Shown here: positions 14,800-18,758 of the stretch, in pieces | Layout: each line of letters begins with the position of its first letter | Numbering within the stretch: position 1 is the first letter of the stretch | Source: Chloroflexota bacterium | Lineage (GTDB): Bacteria > Chloroflexota > Anaerolineae > Anaerolineales > Villigracilaceae | Assembly (NCBI GenBank): GCA_016866215.1 | Contig: VGNE01000017.1 | Span: 1-63,118, forward strand | Direction: 5' to 3' | DNA: 63,118 nucleotides | Notes under the pieces: generated by a model | What the model was told of the DNA's origin: nothing | Databases searched by the model: none | Seen by the model: only the letters and a program-made list of their open reading frames with translations | Program-made: the position numbers and the translations under genes

Positions 14800-14878
14800 C
14801 GAGTAAACAAAGTACACAGGTAAACAAGTTTTCACCCGTCTACCTGTGTACTTGCTTACCCTGTGTGCCTGCCTGTTC
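14800..14878. repeat. Inverted block of gtacacaggtaa / tacctgtgtac words
   Basis: aacgagtaaacaaagtacac and aggtaaacaag are followed by the reverse words (tctacctgtgtacttgc and ttaccctgtgtgcctgcctg). The same ten-base words occur at 37755-37845, 57534-57612, 13553-13590 and inside argS at 34800-34835. Here it sits directly after the aldehyde dehydrogenase stop. Confidence 0.65.
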
Positions 14879-16452
14879 TACTTAATCAACGTGCGGATTT
14901 GTTCGTGCATGTAAAGCGGAAGATAATAATGTCCGCCGGCGTTCTTGCCGCTGGAGCCGGAGCCTTTCCAGCCACCGAATGGTTGGAAGCCAGGCCATGC
15001 GCCAGTGGTTGCGCCCTGTGGACGATTCGCATACGTCACACCTGCTTCGATCTTATCGAAGAACCATTCGGTTTCTTCTGCTGAGCCGTAGAAACCGGCC
15101 GTAAGACCGTAGTTCACGTCATTGGCGATCTTCATCGCGTCGTCAAGATTCTTAACTTTGCCAATCGTGGTGATGGGCAGGAACATTTCTTCTTTCCACA
15201 AGTGATGGGTGAAAGGCAGGTCGGTGACAAAGGTGTTTTCGCAATAAAATCCTTTATCGAACATACCGCCTGTTTTGACATTACCGCCGATAAGGAATTT
15301 TCCGCCGGCCTGACTGATCTCTTCGCAGAAGTTCTTGAAATCATTGTAGGACGATTTGTTGACAACGGGGCCATTGTATGTGTTGCGTTCCGTCGGGTCA
15401 CCAAGCACCAATTTTGAAGCGGCATCTTTCAAACGGGCGGTCAAGTCGTCGTAAACAGAATCCTCTACAATCACGCGTGAAGCGGCGGAGCATTTCTGTC
15501 CCTGCAAACCAAACGCCGAGCGGATGATCCCGATCGTGGCGCGTTCCAGATCCGCATCCTTCGAAACGATGACAGGATTCTTTCCGCCGAGTTCCAAAAT
15601 GATCGGACGCACATAATTGCGTTTGCCGAAATCCTGGAACATCTTCATGCCCACATCGAACGAGCCTGTGAAGGTCACGCCGTCCACTTCCTTGCTGTCT
15701 ACAAGCGCCTGACCCAATGTGGAGCCGGGGCCGGTGACGAAGTTCACCACGCCATCGGGGATGCCCGCATCGCGGAAGCAATCCACAAGCAGGCGCACGA
15801 TCCACGCAGTATCTGTCGCGGGCTTGATCACAAGCGTGTTACCAGCCACGAGCGCCGCGCCGGAAGGACCACCAGTGAGCGCAAAGGGGAAGTTGAACGG
15901 CGATACGACAAGCCAAACGCCATACGGGCGAAGCACAGATACATTGCGGGCATCATAGCCTACGAGCGGGTCTTTGCCCATTTCAACAATGTAGCCTTCA
16001 TTCTTTTCCATTTGATGACACGAATAATAAATAAGATCGGCTGTTTCCTGCACGTCGCCCAAAGACTCCATGCGATTCTTGCCGACCTCCAGCGCCATTG
16101 CCGCACCAAGTTCAAAAATTCGCTCTTCAATTAATGAAGCCGCCTTGCGAAGCAATTCCACACGCTTTTGCCAGGGAGTATGGCTCCACATTGGGAAAGC
16201 CGCGCGCGCCGCCGCCAACGCTTCCTGCGCGTGTTTAGCGTTACCTTTCTGCATTTTTGCCAGTACCCAATCGGTGTTGACAGGGGAATGATCGTCGAAC
16301 TTCTCATCGGCTTTCACTTCCTTGCCGTTGATCAACATGCCATATTCCTGTCCCATATTTTTCTTGAGTTTTTCCACGGCTTTATCAAAACCAGTGTGTA
16401 ACTCTTCGGGTGGGTTGAACATGGTTGCGTATGTGAGTTTAAAGTCTGCCAT
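14878..16452 (-). CDS. Aldehyde dehydrogenase, L-glutamate gamma-semialdehyde (P5C) dehydrogenase type
   Basis: 524 residues, the length of bacterial P5C dehydrogenases (PruA/RocA). It has the NAD-binding FTGSFDVGMKM loop, the catalytic Glu in ILELGGKNPV and the nucleophile Cys in GQKCSAASRV. The N-terminal MADFKLTYATMFNPPEELH and the AETADLIYY-like segment also match this subgroup. The expected reaction is oxidation of glutamate semialdehyde to glutamate, the last step of proline breakdown. No proline dehydrogenase gene is nearby. A ribosome site (aggagg) lies before the ATG. It is the first gene of the minus-strand run that continues through the CoA transferase. Confidence 0.85.
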   Translation of the reverse strand: MADFKLTYATMFNPPEELHTGFDKAVEKLKKNMGQEYGMLINGKEVKADEKFDDHSPVNTDWVLAKMQKGNAKHAQEALAAARAAFPMWSHTPWQKRVELLRKAASLIEERIFELGAAMALEVGKNRMESLGDVQETADLIYYSCHQMEKNEGYIVEMGKDPLVGYDARNVSVLRPYGVWLVVSPFNFPFALTGGPSGAALVAGNTLVIKPATDTAWIVRLLVDCFRDAGIPDGVVNFVTGPGSTLGQALVDSKEVDGVTFTGSFDVGMKMFQDFGKRNYVRPIILELGGKNPVIVSKDADLERATIGIIRSAFGLQGQKCSAASRVIVEDSVYDDLTARLKDAASKLVLGDPTERNTYNGPVVNKSSYNDFKNFCEEISQAGGKFLIGGNVKTGGMFDKGFYCENTFVTDLPFTHHLWKEEMFLPITTIGKVKNLDDAMKIANDVNYGLTAGFYGSAEETEWFFDKIEAGVTYANRPQGATTGAWPGFQPFGGWKGSGSSGKNAGGHYYLPLYMHEQIRTLIK

Positions 16453-16762
16453 TGCGAGCCTCCTGAAATAATTTGGATGGTTTTATAATTTTGTGGTTGA
16501 GTAGTCAACGATATCTAACCGAACTAACCAAACCCAGTATAGCGTAGGATTTCACAACCGTCAAAGTAAAGCGACTGTTTTTCAATATGACGTATTTCCT
16601 GCTTAGAGTTTAGTGAGAGAATGTAAGAACGGATGAAAACGGACTGTCATTCATCGTAAATACTTCCTGCGCAGAACGTCCCGAAGGTTTGGCCAAGTCA
16701 ACTGTATTTTATAAGGGAGCCTTCGGAACGGTTCGTACATCCATTAATAGGAGAAATAATTG
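16453..16762. other. Divergent intergenic region with a hairpin repeat
   Basis: No gene is seen. The arms gaacgtcccgaagg (16674-16687) and ccttcggaacggttc (16720-16734) can form an imperfect hairpin about 30 bases upstream of the thioredoxin gene. A ggttgagtagtcaacg fragment at 16495-16510 resembles one arm of the 48029-48070 repeat. The region must hold the promoters of both the aldehyde dehydrogenase and the thioredoxin gene, but I find no convincing pair of hexamers. Confidence 0.4.
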
Positions 16763-17284
16763 ATGAAACCCCGCTTCATTTTTCTAGCCGTTGGCCTGGT
16801 CGCTGTTTTATTGGTATCGTGCGCCCCTCAAGTGCCTCAACCATCCGCGCTGCCCCAGGCGAATCTGCTTCAAGCGGCTACTCAAACCCCTGAAAGCCTC
16901 GCCCAGCTTCAAGTCACAAATGAAGCGCCGGCAGTTGTAGCTGTCGCAACCTCGCGCGGGCCCAACCTCGAAGCCACCGATCCTACGACGGTCAGTCTCG
17001 CTTCGGGTCAATTGCAACTTGTGGAATTCTTCCGCTTTACCTGAGGTACCTGCCGATCAATGGCGTCCATGGTTCATGGGCTTGAAGCAGAGTATTCTGG
17101 CAAAGTCAAATTTACCTATCTTGATGCAGATGACCCCAGCACTGATGTTTTCCAGCGCGAATTAGGTTTCTACTACCAACCTGAGTTTTATCTGCTAGCT
17201 GATGATGGAGAAGTGATCAAAAAGCTTGTCGGTTATATCTCGGAAGATGAATTTAGAAGTTTGTTCGAAGAAAATTTGCAGTAA
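16763..17284 (+). CDS. Thioredoxin-fold lipoprotein with in-frame TGA at the first active-site Cys (selenoprotein candidate)
   Basis: Read through TGA (17042-17044) as one residue, the frame gives a 173-residue protein. A signal peptide ends in the lipobox LLVSC (so it is lipid-anchored outside the membrane). A spacer, then the thioredoxin strand LQLVEFFRFT, the redox motif U-G-T-C (U = TGA), the helix RSMASMVHGLEAEY, and YLDADDP, then QPEFYLL with the usual cis-Pro position replaced by the QPEF turn, and VGYISEDEF. TGA stands exactly where the first Cys of C-x-x-C belongs, and the 80 codons after it are open and family-like, so this is not a random ORF split. A hairpin suited to be a bacterial SECIS follows. 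Alternatives: a Cys-to-stop mutation or a sequencing error. No selA, selB, selC or selD is in the window. A strong ribosome site (aggag) precedes ATG 16763. Confidence 0.72.
17042..17081 (+). promoter_or_regulatory. Recoded UGA and candidate bacterial SECIS hairpin
   Basis: After TGA, positions 17065-17081 can fold as a 7-pair stem: g-t-ccatg, loop gtt, catgg-g-c (one G-U pair). The loop starts 28 bases after the TGA and its first base is G. Bacterial SECIS elements lie within the coding region, roughly 16-37 bases from the UGA to the loop, with a G at the start of a small apical loop, so the position and shape fit. A short alternative stem (gcc / ggc, 17052-17064) also exists. Confidence 0.5.
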
Positions 17285-17338: not shown

Positions 17339-17376
17339 ATAAAAACAGCGCGGTGACTTTCGCCGCGCTGTTTTTG
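17339..17376. terminator. Bidirectional terminator between thioredoxin and MFS genes
   Basis: aaaaacagcgcgg and ccgcgctgttttt form a 13-pair stem around a short loop, with A-run and T-run on the flanks, so it can end transcription of both convergent genes. Confidence 0.85.
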
Positions 17377-17393
17377 TATCTAAAAATATTATC

Positions 17394-18758
17394 TTACTGA
17401 TTTCCGTCGTACTTCCTGGCGTCTGCGATGGCTTTGTTTACATTTACAAATGGAAGCAGGATCAATCCCATGATGAAGAAGAAGATCAACGAAAGGATGG
17501 CATAGCGCAGATTTCCAAACCATTGATTTGCGAGTCCAAATATCAGCGGACCGATCCACGAAGTGCCGCGTTCGCTGATCTCATAAAAGGAAAAGAATTC
17601 CGCTTCCTTGCCCTTTGGGATCATTTGCGCAAACAGGCTGCGGCTAATGGCTTGCGATCCGCCCAACACAAGCGCAATGAAAATGCCGAGAATGAAGAAT
17701 TGGGCGGTTGCGCTCTCACCTTTTAATCCGCCATATGCGTAGATTACCACCGCTGACCAGACCACCAAACTGACAACCACCGATTGCTTCGCGCCGATCC
17801 AGCCTGCCAGTTTTCCCCAGAACAAGGCTCCGAAGAAAGCCACGAATTGGATCATCAAAATAACGGCGATCAAGGTTTGTTGTTCAAATTCCAGCCCGCC
17901 CTGAATCAGAGGCGCGGCGGCAAATGTGGAAGCTACTGCAATAACAGTCTGAATGCCGTCGTTATACAGGAAATAGGCGATCAGGAATCTAATGGTTTCG
18001 GGAAAATGCTTCACTTCGCTAACCGTCTTGCGAAGCTGTTTGAAGCCAATACTTACATAAGTTTCACCAGCGGGGAGTTGGCGCGCGGCGTGACGTGGGC
18101 GCAGTCTTTTCCATGTCAGGAAGGAAAATCCAAGCCACCATATACCTGCAGATGCAAGGTTGATACGAACCGCCAGATCCCCGGGTACACCGAGAGCGTC
18201 GCTAAAAGTGAAGAAAGCCAGGTTGAGCGCCAGCAAAATGCCGCCGCCCATATAGCCCATTGCCCAGCCATACGAAGAAACACGGTCTCTTTCATCTTCA
18301 CTTGCAATATCAGGCAGGTATGCATTATAGAAAACTATCGCCGCGCCAAAAGCGAGATTGGCAACGATGAAGAGCACACCACCCAGCCACCATAATCCAC
18401 CCGTGACGAGGAACATCAGAATGGTCGCCAGCGCGCCGATGGTGGCAAATATTTGCATCATGCGTTTTCGTAAATGCGAATAATCTGCTATCGCGCCAAG
18501 AATAGGCAGGAACAAAACCTGCATTCCTACGGAAAACGATATGCAGTAAGGGAGGAATGAATCGGGCGCAACAGGAATTCCAAAAAATGATACTGTTGCC
18601 GTCCCCGCTGCTTCCGCTGCGGTGCGTGCCAGTGATGCCACATAGGGCCCAAGAAACACAGTTCCCACTGTGGTGCTGAAGGCCGAATTGGCCCAGTCAT
18701 ACATGGCCCAGCCAAAAATCTCTTTTCTGTCGTTTACCATTGCTGATTCTGTTGACAT
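17394..18758 (-). CDS. MFS transporter, UMF1/Atg22-like family
   Basis: 454 residues with about twelve membrane segments. The opening FGWAMYDWANSAFSTTVGTVFLGPY is the signature of the UMF1 (Atg22-like) branch of the major facilitator superfamily, and the later GGSQAISRSLFAQMIPKGKEAEFFSFYEISERGTSWIGP segment also matches it. Yeast Atg22 exports amino acids from the vacuole; bacterial members are of unknown substrate. It is transcribed toward the bidirectional terminator and has no same-strand partner. Confidence 0.9.
   Translation of the reverse strand: MSTESAMVNDRKEIFGWAMYDWANSAFSTTVGTVFLGPYVASLARTAAEAAGTATVSFFGIPVAPDSFLPYCISFSVGMQVLFLPILGAIADYSHLRKRMMQIFATIGALATILMFLVTGGLWWLGGVLFIVANLAFGAAIVFYNAYLPDIASEDERDRVSSYGWAMGYMGGGILLALNLAFFTFSDALGVPGDLAVRINLASAGIWWLGFSFLTWKRLRPRHAARQLPAGETYVSIGFKQLRKTVSEVKHFPETIRFLIAYFLYNDGIQTVIAVASTFAAAPLIQGGLEFEQQTLIAVILMIQFVAFFGALFWGKLAGWIGAKQSVVVSLVVWSAVVIYAYGGLKGESATAQFFILGIFIALVLGGSQAISRSLFAQMIPKGKEAEFFSFYEISERGTSWIGPLIFGLANQWFGNLRYAILSLIFFFIMGLILLPFVNVNKAIADARKYDGNQ

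Follow-up and report, generated by a model that had tools for sequence, protein, structure and literature searches.

The 63,118-nucleotide stretch of DNA analysed here (the window) almost certainly carries a selenoprotein gene, in which the UGA codon at 17042-17044 would be decoded as selenocysteine (Sec) at the first redox position of an exported, thioredoxin-like lipoprotein. A first-pass annotation of the same DNA had offered this interpretation, which is now supported by the Sec machinery of the genome, by a TGA column conserved among relatives and by conservation past the TGA. The features of the gene are listed below.

16749-16753, + strand: likely ribosome-binding site AGGAG, 9 bases 5' of the ATG (from the sequence)
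16763-17284, + strand: putative selenoprotein gene for an exported thioredoxin-like lipoprotein of 173 residues, with TGA read as Sec and a TAA stop at 17282-17284
16763-16822, + strand: predicted lipoprotein signal peptide MKPRFIFLAVGLVAVLLVSC with lipobox LVSC, Cys20 at 16820-16822 (from the sequence and the lipobox pattern of family members)
16952-16984, + strand: conserved motif SRGPNLEATDP, residues 64-74, ahead of the thioredoxin domain (alignment A1)
17042-17044, + strand: predicted Sec codon TGA for residue 94, the first of the two redox residues in UxxC (from the sequence and the alignment of relatives)
17051-17053, + strand: codon for the resolving Cys97, invariant in the 62 rows of alignment A1
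17180-17182, + strand: codon for Pro140, invariant in the same 62 rows

The TGA is the sole interruption of the open reading frame, and it replaces the first Cys of a CxxC motif (FFRFT-U-GTC-RSM), which bears out the earlier description of a single frame split at exactly this residue. When both strands of the window were scanned for TGA-split frames with 60 or more codons on either side of the TGA and less than half overlap with long ORFs, this was the only one. When the TGA was read through, residues 82-167 matched the Pfam Thioredoxin family (PF00085; E 1.3e-9; 38.4 bits against a cut-off of 23.5). The segment 3' of the TGA alone scored 25.1 bits against this cut-off, in agreement with the earlier claim that a thioredoxin is retained past the TGA. 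Pro140 would occupy the position of the thioredoxin cis-Pro. TGA terminates 6 of the 36 long ORFs in the window and is therefore an ordinary stop elsewhere in it, as had been claimed; genome-wide recoding of TGA was ruled out on this ground.

A Pro/Ala/Thr-rich linker lies between the signal peptide and SRGPNLEATDP. A lipobox downstream of a hydrophobic stretch was detected, using a simple pattern and not SignalP, in 68 of the 73 family members with a match that begins close to the N-terminus. From its N-terminal sequence, the product is very probably anchored by a lipid at Cys20 on the outside of the membrane.

The genome that includes the window as its contig C17 measures 3.74 Mb and is 97% complete. 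The first-pass annotation had proposed a search for selA, selB, selD and the gene for tRNA-Sec (selC), and all four were found in this genome over their cut-offs: the tRNA-Sec, with anticodon tca, at 66.4 bits (cut-off 47), SelA at 560.3 bits, SelB at 354.3 bits and SelD at 345.6 bits. The SelD gene itself contains one internal TGA, in the motif CAG-U-ASK, which fits the UxxK motif given for Sec-containing SelD (PMC13188914) and makes it a second likely selenoprotein gene in the genome.

Distribution of Sec and Cys forms among relatives

We searched 151 genomes, comprising the source genome and 150 relatives. Some thioredoxin match at an E value of 1e-3 or better was present in 139 of them, and family membership was assigned to matches up to E 2e-14. 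The alignment of homologues, which the first-pass annotation had called for, revealed TGA in the same column in 88 of the 151 genomes, with Cys as the alternative in eight; the remaining 55 had no clear copy, although one of these (G104) contains a disrupted copy. Counted over 113 distinct stretches, the codon at this site was TGA in 100, TGC in 7 and TGT in 6, figures that take in paralogues, four ordinary thioredoxins and the misanchored locus L142 (one of the seven TGC). Thirteen of the 27 named loci are named as Anaerolineales, and the rest as Chloroflexi/Chloroflexota, Anaerolineae, Anaerolineaceae, Anaerolinea, Brevefilum or Herpetosiphon. Of 400 genomes drawn from the phylum, 19 contained the family at E 1e-12; 17 of these were from the same taxonomic family as the source genome and two were others of the same class. 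Each of these 19 best matches contains one TGA, its column having been checked for those among the 151 genomes.

We then compared synonymous and non-synonymous change in the 40 codons past the TGA. dS was defined in 13 of 14 comparisons, with dN ranging from 0.07 to 0.26 and dS from 0.37 to 1.83, and dN was lower than dS in all 13. The homologues are thus conserved beyond the TGA, a point on which the earlier interpretation had been staked, and on these rates the codons downstream of the TGA are evidently under purifying selection.

A change from TGC or TGT to TGA takes one base, and Cys occupies the same column in eight genomes, which could suggest that the gene is a pseudogene whose Cys codon became a stop, or that the TGA is a sequencing error. 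Since the same TGA is found in 88 of the 151 genomes, this is very unlikely, to the point of being negligible; the purifying selection past the TGA, the small number of Cys forms and their position among Sec forms, and a hairpin kept in Sec genes and not in Cys genes (see below) also speak against it. In a quick tree of 116 rows, built from few columns, the Cys forms lay among the Sec forms. A minimum of three changes of the Cys label was required on this tree, one of which is forced by well-supported branches. The active site in the lineage of the window gene reads T-U-[GS]-T-C-R, and the motif ahead of the domain reads SRGxxLxATDP across the family.

The Sec reading was next set against the machinery of each genome. 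SelA exceeded its cut-off in 83 of the 88 TGA genomes and SelB in 82; 77 had both proteins and all 88 had at least one, whereas the eight Cys genomes comprised three with both proteins (G116, G132 and G150) and five with neither, all five from a single taxonomic family (f9). The presence of at least one of SelA and SelB differed between TGA and Cys genomes with a Fisher P of 9e-7, relatedness being ignored. Five Sec genomes fell below the SelA cut-off, one of them with a fragment, and six below that of SelB, which may be due to incomplete assemblies. SelA or SelB was also present in 45 of the 55 genomes without a clear copy. The Cys forms of G116, G132 and G150, which occur despite SelA and SelB, indicate that Sec is not indispensable. 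As a separate observation, two SelB-like proteins over the cut-off were found in each of two genomes, G109 (contigs C41 and C30) and G039 (contigs C167 and C445), and in several others the SelB match was confined to the first ~350 model positions; perhaps there are two SelB types among the relatives.

The motif SRGxxLxATDP, which lies 5' of the UGA, is likewise conserved, and this would be in keeping with a selenium-controlled switch in which low selenium leads mainly to a 93-residue lipopeptide with a role of its own. However, the motif adjoins the thioredoxin domain and could belong to its fold, and in the five Cys genomes that lack both SelA and SelB a UGA-free ORF runs across that domain. 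We regard such a switch as very improbable.

The hairpin downstream of the TGA

17065-17081, + strand: candidate SECIS-type hairpin, in which 17065-17071 and 17075-17081 form 7 pairs, including one U-G, around the loop GTT at 17072-17074 (from folding and comparison with relatives)

The 7-pair hairpin with a G-first loop that the first-pass annotation had described is present, with the loop GTT 27 bases past the TGA and the hairpin as a whole at bases 21-37 past it. Folding of 63 bases of the window gave -20.1 kcal/mol (z = -1.30), and 25 of 200 shuffled sequences were equally stable. Elsewhere in the window, 89 of 2527 TGAs were followed by a hairpin of the model type at least as stable as that of the gene. 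Taken alone, the hairpin of the window is an unremarkable fold, and it becomes convincing because of the comparison with relatives.

The published bacterial SECIS model requires 16-37 nt to the loop, a G in loop position 1 or 2, a loop of 3-9 nt and a stem of 4-16 bp, with an energy limit of -7.5 kcal/mol or lower (PMC13188914). Our scoring was a re-implementation of these published rules (PMC13188914). The window hairpin fits the geometric rules (27 nt, loop GUU, 7 bp), and in this respect the SECIS assignment proposed earlier stood; scored alone, its energy was -7.2 kcal/mol, 0.3 short of the limit. The complete rules were passed by 80 of 90 Sec genes, one of eight Cys genes and 71 of the 2527 other TGAs of the window. 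The 90-gene set omits L142 (from G104, with a disrupted frame), five genes with a UxxU motif and five further TGA paralogues, and includes the tandem genes of L111 as two rows.

In the Sec genes, the consensus is a hairpin that begins after 20 bases past the TGA, with seven pairs around a three-base loop, which is GTT in 63, GTG in 26 and GTC in one of the 90. The last pair is broken in 22 of them, leaving six pairs that enclose five bases. Standard pairs filled 604 of 630 cells in the 90 Sec genes, compared to 34 of 56 in the eight Cys genes. All seven pairs were intact in 68 of 90 Sec genes and none of the eight Cys genes, and the first five in 87 of 90 and none of eight, respectively. Three genes outside the set (L073, L082 and L117) each have the TGA and all seven pairs, and their addition brought these counts to 71 of 93 and 90 of 93. 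None of 2000 same-column synonymous shuffles, which do not keep relatedness, reached 604 standard cells (maximum 585), and random synonymous codons gave a mean of 370. Both sides of the stem had changed in a compensatory way at four of its seven pairs: two went from C-G to T-A, one from A-T to G-C and one from G-C to A-T. A chance hairpin was ruled out by the pairing in Sec genes compared to the shuffles and the Cys genes.

These results bear on whether a suppressor or near-cognate tRNA might insert Cys or Trp, and not Sec, at the UGA. Cys is the natural replacement at residue 94, and the evidence on the inserted residue is comparative. Such readthrough is nevertheless highly improbable: SelA or SelB accompanies all 88 TGA genomes and both are missing from five of the eight Cys genomes, the covarying hairpin accompanies TGA and not TGC or TGT, and TGA serves as a normal stop both in those 6 of 36 window ORFs and at the end of the first tandem gene of L111. 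One family provides a natural experiment, in that it lacks the machinery, has Cys at the site and shows decay of the hairpin.

Fold, gene context and proposed function

An AlphaFold2 model computed with 62 family sequences had an N-terminal part of low confidence and, from about residue 71 onwards, a confidently predicted thioredoxin fold, in which pLDDT averaged 94-98 over each ten residues. The best matches of the model in the PDB, identified by Foldseek, were thioredoxins, the first with a TM score of 0.84 by target length. The 50 Foldseek matches listed were thioredoxins, thioredoxin complexes or fusions, or designed thioredoxins, except for 6gd1, whose title names only HuR RRM3. A profile search of PDB sequences gave 274 matches, and the 60 listed were mostly thioredoxins and protein disulfide isomerases. 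In the model, residue 94 immediately precedes the first long helix (95-110), as expected at the redox site. The fold, this placement and the lipobox make an extracytoplasmic thiol-disulfide oxidoreductase the natural reading, and we consider it rather probable that the product is an envelope thiol-disulfide reductase.

We infer the actual insertion of Sec, the lipidation and the function. In the mechanism that we propose, SelB and Sec-tRNA(Sec), steered by the hairpin, would decode the UGA at 17042-17044 as Sec, and the exported product would be held by the lipid at Cys20 on the outside of the membrane. A disordered linker would lead to the thioredoxin domain with Sec as its N-terminal redox residue (U94-G-T-C97). 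Sec94 would attack disulfides of substrates, Cys97 would resolve the selenenyl-sulfide, and a membrane carrier of the CcdA/DsbD type could supply the electrons. Four DsbD_TM matches over the cut-off were found in the source genome.

The gene is flanked by two genes outside the system:

14878-16452, - strand: divergent neighbour, aldehyde dehydrogenase PF00171 (Pfam)
17394-18758, - strand: convergent neighbour, ATG22/MFS-type transporter PF11700 (Pfam)

No operon partner was found in the window; both neighbours are unrelated and lie on the opposite strand, and the context in the window is therefore uninformative on the partner of the gene. A scan for promoters and terminators yielded no more than chance would (one promoter-like site with 1.7 expected, and no terminators with 0.9 expected). 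An inverted repeat, AAACAGCGCGG / CCGCGCTGTTT, with a T run, is located at 17343-17373 between the convergent genes; its 9-base loop places it outside the limits of the terminator scan, and from its sequence it is likely to be a terminator.

Gene context was also examined in 96 loci from all families, using mechanically called ORFs, with fewer than four neighbours near contig ends. The same aldehyde dehydrogenase was among the four nearest upstream ORFs in 46 of these, mostly adjacent. Downstream of the gene, nine loci encode proteins that we take to be P-type ATPases from sequence motifs and not from Pfam, four with the Sec form (L112, L113, L115 and L116) and five with the Cys form (L121 of family f14, and L126, L130, L135 and L136 of f9). 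A CsoR-like repressor lies between the gene and the ATPase in L112, L113, L115, L116 and L121 (PF02583 tested in L112). Upstream and on the other strand, L112, L113, L115 and L116 have LGT-like and ResA/TlpA-like genes, the latter with an AhpC-TSA/Redoxin match (both tested in L112). In L123, L133 and L138, a YkuD-like protein is followed by one that resembles the membrane protein CcdA (PF03734 and PF02683, respectively, tested in L123). The context in relatives points to thiol redox in the envelope and perhaps to the handling of copper. Some relatives may have a connection with copper or thiol stress; overall, a copper link is conceivable but rather unlikely. As a tentative general picture, Anaerolineae may deploy a family of selenocysteine envelope thioredoxins, lipid-anchored and of the UxxC type, fed by CcdA-type carriers, with ties to copper efflux (CsoR-CopA) in some lineages, a change from Sec to Cys upon loss of the machinery, and diselenide-capable UxxU forms elsewhere.

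Known thioredoxins and sister branches

As far as is known, the Sec thioredoxins that have been characterised are cytosolic proteins and belong to the classical W-C-G-P-C type. TlpA and ResA are exported, membrane-attached thioredoxin-like reductases that normally use Cys. The product of the window gene shares with Sec thioredoxins (PF00085, UxxC) the fold and Sec as the N-terminal redox residue, but adds a lipoprotein signal, the SRGxxLxATDP linker and, in its lineage, T-U-[GS]-T-C-R. Unlike TlpA and ResA, it scores best in Pfam as a plain Thioredoxin, with AhpC-TSA absent and Redoxin below the cut-off. A UxxC motif in a thioredoxin-like fold is also common to SaoT (NF040730) and other catalogued thioredoxin-like selenoproteins. 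However, the protein scored below the cut-offs for both SaoT (12.3 bits, cut-off 65) and classical TrxA (TIGR01068; 32.7 bits, cut-off 96.8). No NCBIfam model was over its cut-off, and no other selenoprotein-named model was among the 10 matches listed. Because it falls below every NCBIfam cut-off, the subfamily would probably appear in annotations as a truncated lipoprotein.

Sec-containing thioredoxins form an established family, which PMC13188914 gives as experimentally verified and which is also treated in PMC9312934. The main texts of these two reviews do not mention Chloroflex or Anaerolin, and those of PMC12013277 and PMC5029168 do not mention thioredoxin, Chloroflex, Anaerolin, lipoprotein, UxxC or Trx. 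Single-cell genomes of Anaerolineales are described as using Sec for formate dehydrogenase, along with a Sec translation factor (PMC4959059), and a survey from 2006 gives three selenoproteins for Chloroflexi (PMC1794560). In the titles, abstract openings and passages covered by our literature search, there was no exported or lipid-anchored selenothioredoxin, and a prior description is conceivable. The principle of a Sec thioredoxin is thus known, while the subfamily, its location and the UxxU branch appear to be new. With these results, one bacterial order gains a well-supported and common subfamily of selenoproteins, which would place selenocysteine chemistry outside the membrane. The natural Sec/Cys pairs, together with the UxxU branch, offer test material for what Sec gains a thioredoxin.

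The UxxU branch comprises five genes, which are spread over three genomes from the same genus (G099, G124 and G136; family f10). All five copies (L144, L145, L147, L148 and L149) have two in-frame TGAs, in the motif [FY]ADW-U-x-x-U, and the proteins start with a lipoprotein-like signal. They form a single clade (SH-aLRT 99), and their hairpin has about five pairs, with none of the five reaching the energy limit. By its motif, the UxxU form could possibly be a diselenide thioredoxin; Prx-like proteins with UxxU motifs are already known (PMC13188914; PMC2398784).

Other arrangements were observed among paralogues. Locus L111 (4001-4915) has tandem genes for Sec-thioredoxin lipoproteins, in which TGA stops the first gene and the second starts with its ATG three bases further on; TGA would here stand for Sec twice and for stop once within 1 kb. 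A thioredoxin-like group found in L151, L153, L154 and L103 (1899-2408) carries a membrane stretch at the N-terminus and a TGA in the motif QSP[YF]-U-x-x-C, and forms a separate clade with a hairpin past the TGA in folds. Finally, a paralogue that adjoins the Sec gene of L116 (from about 3485, 335 aa) has lost both redox residues (ATWAPDSDVMAP), and is apparently a redox-dead thioredoxin lipoprotein, judging from its sequence.
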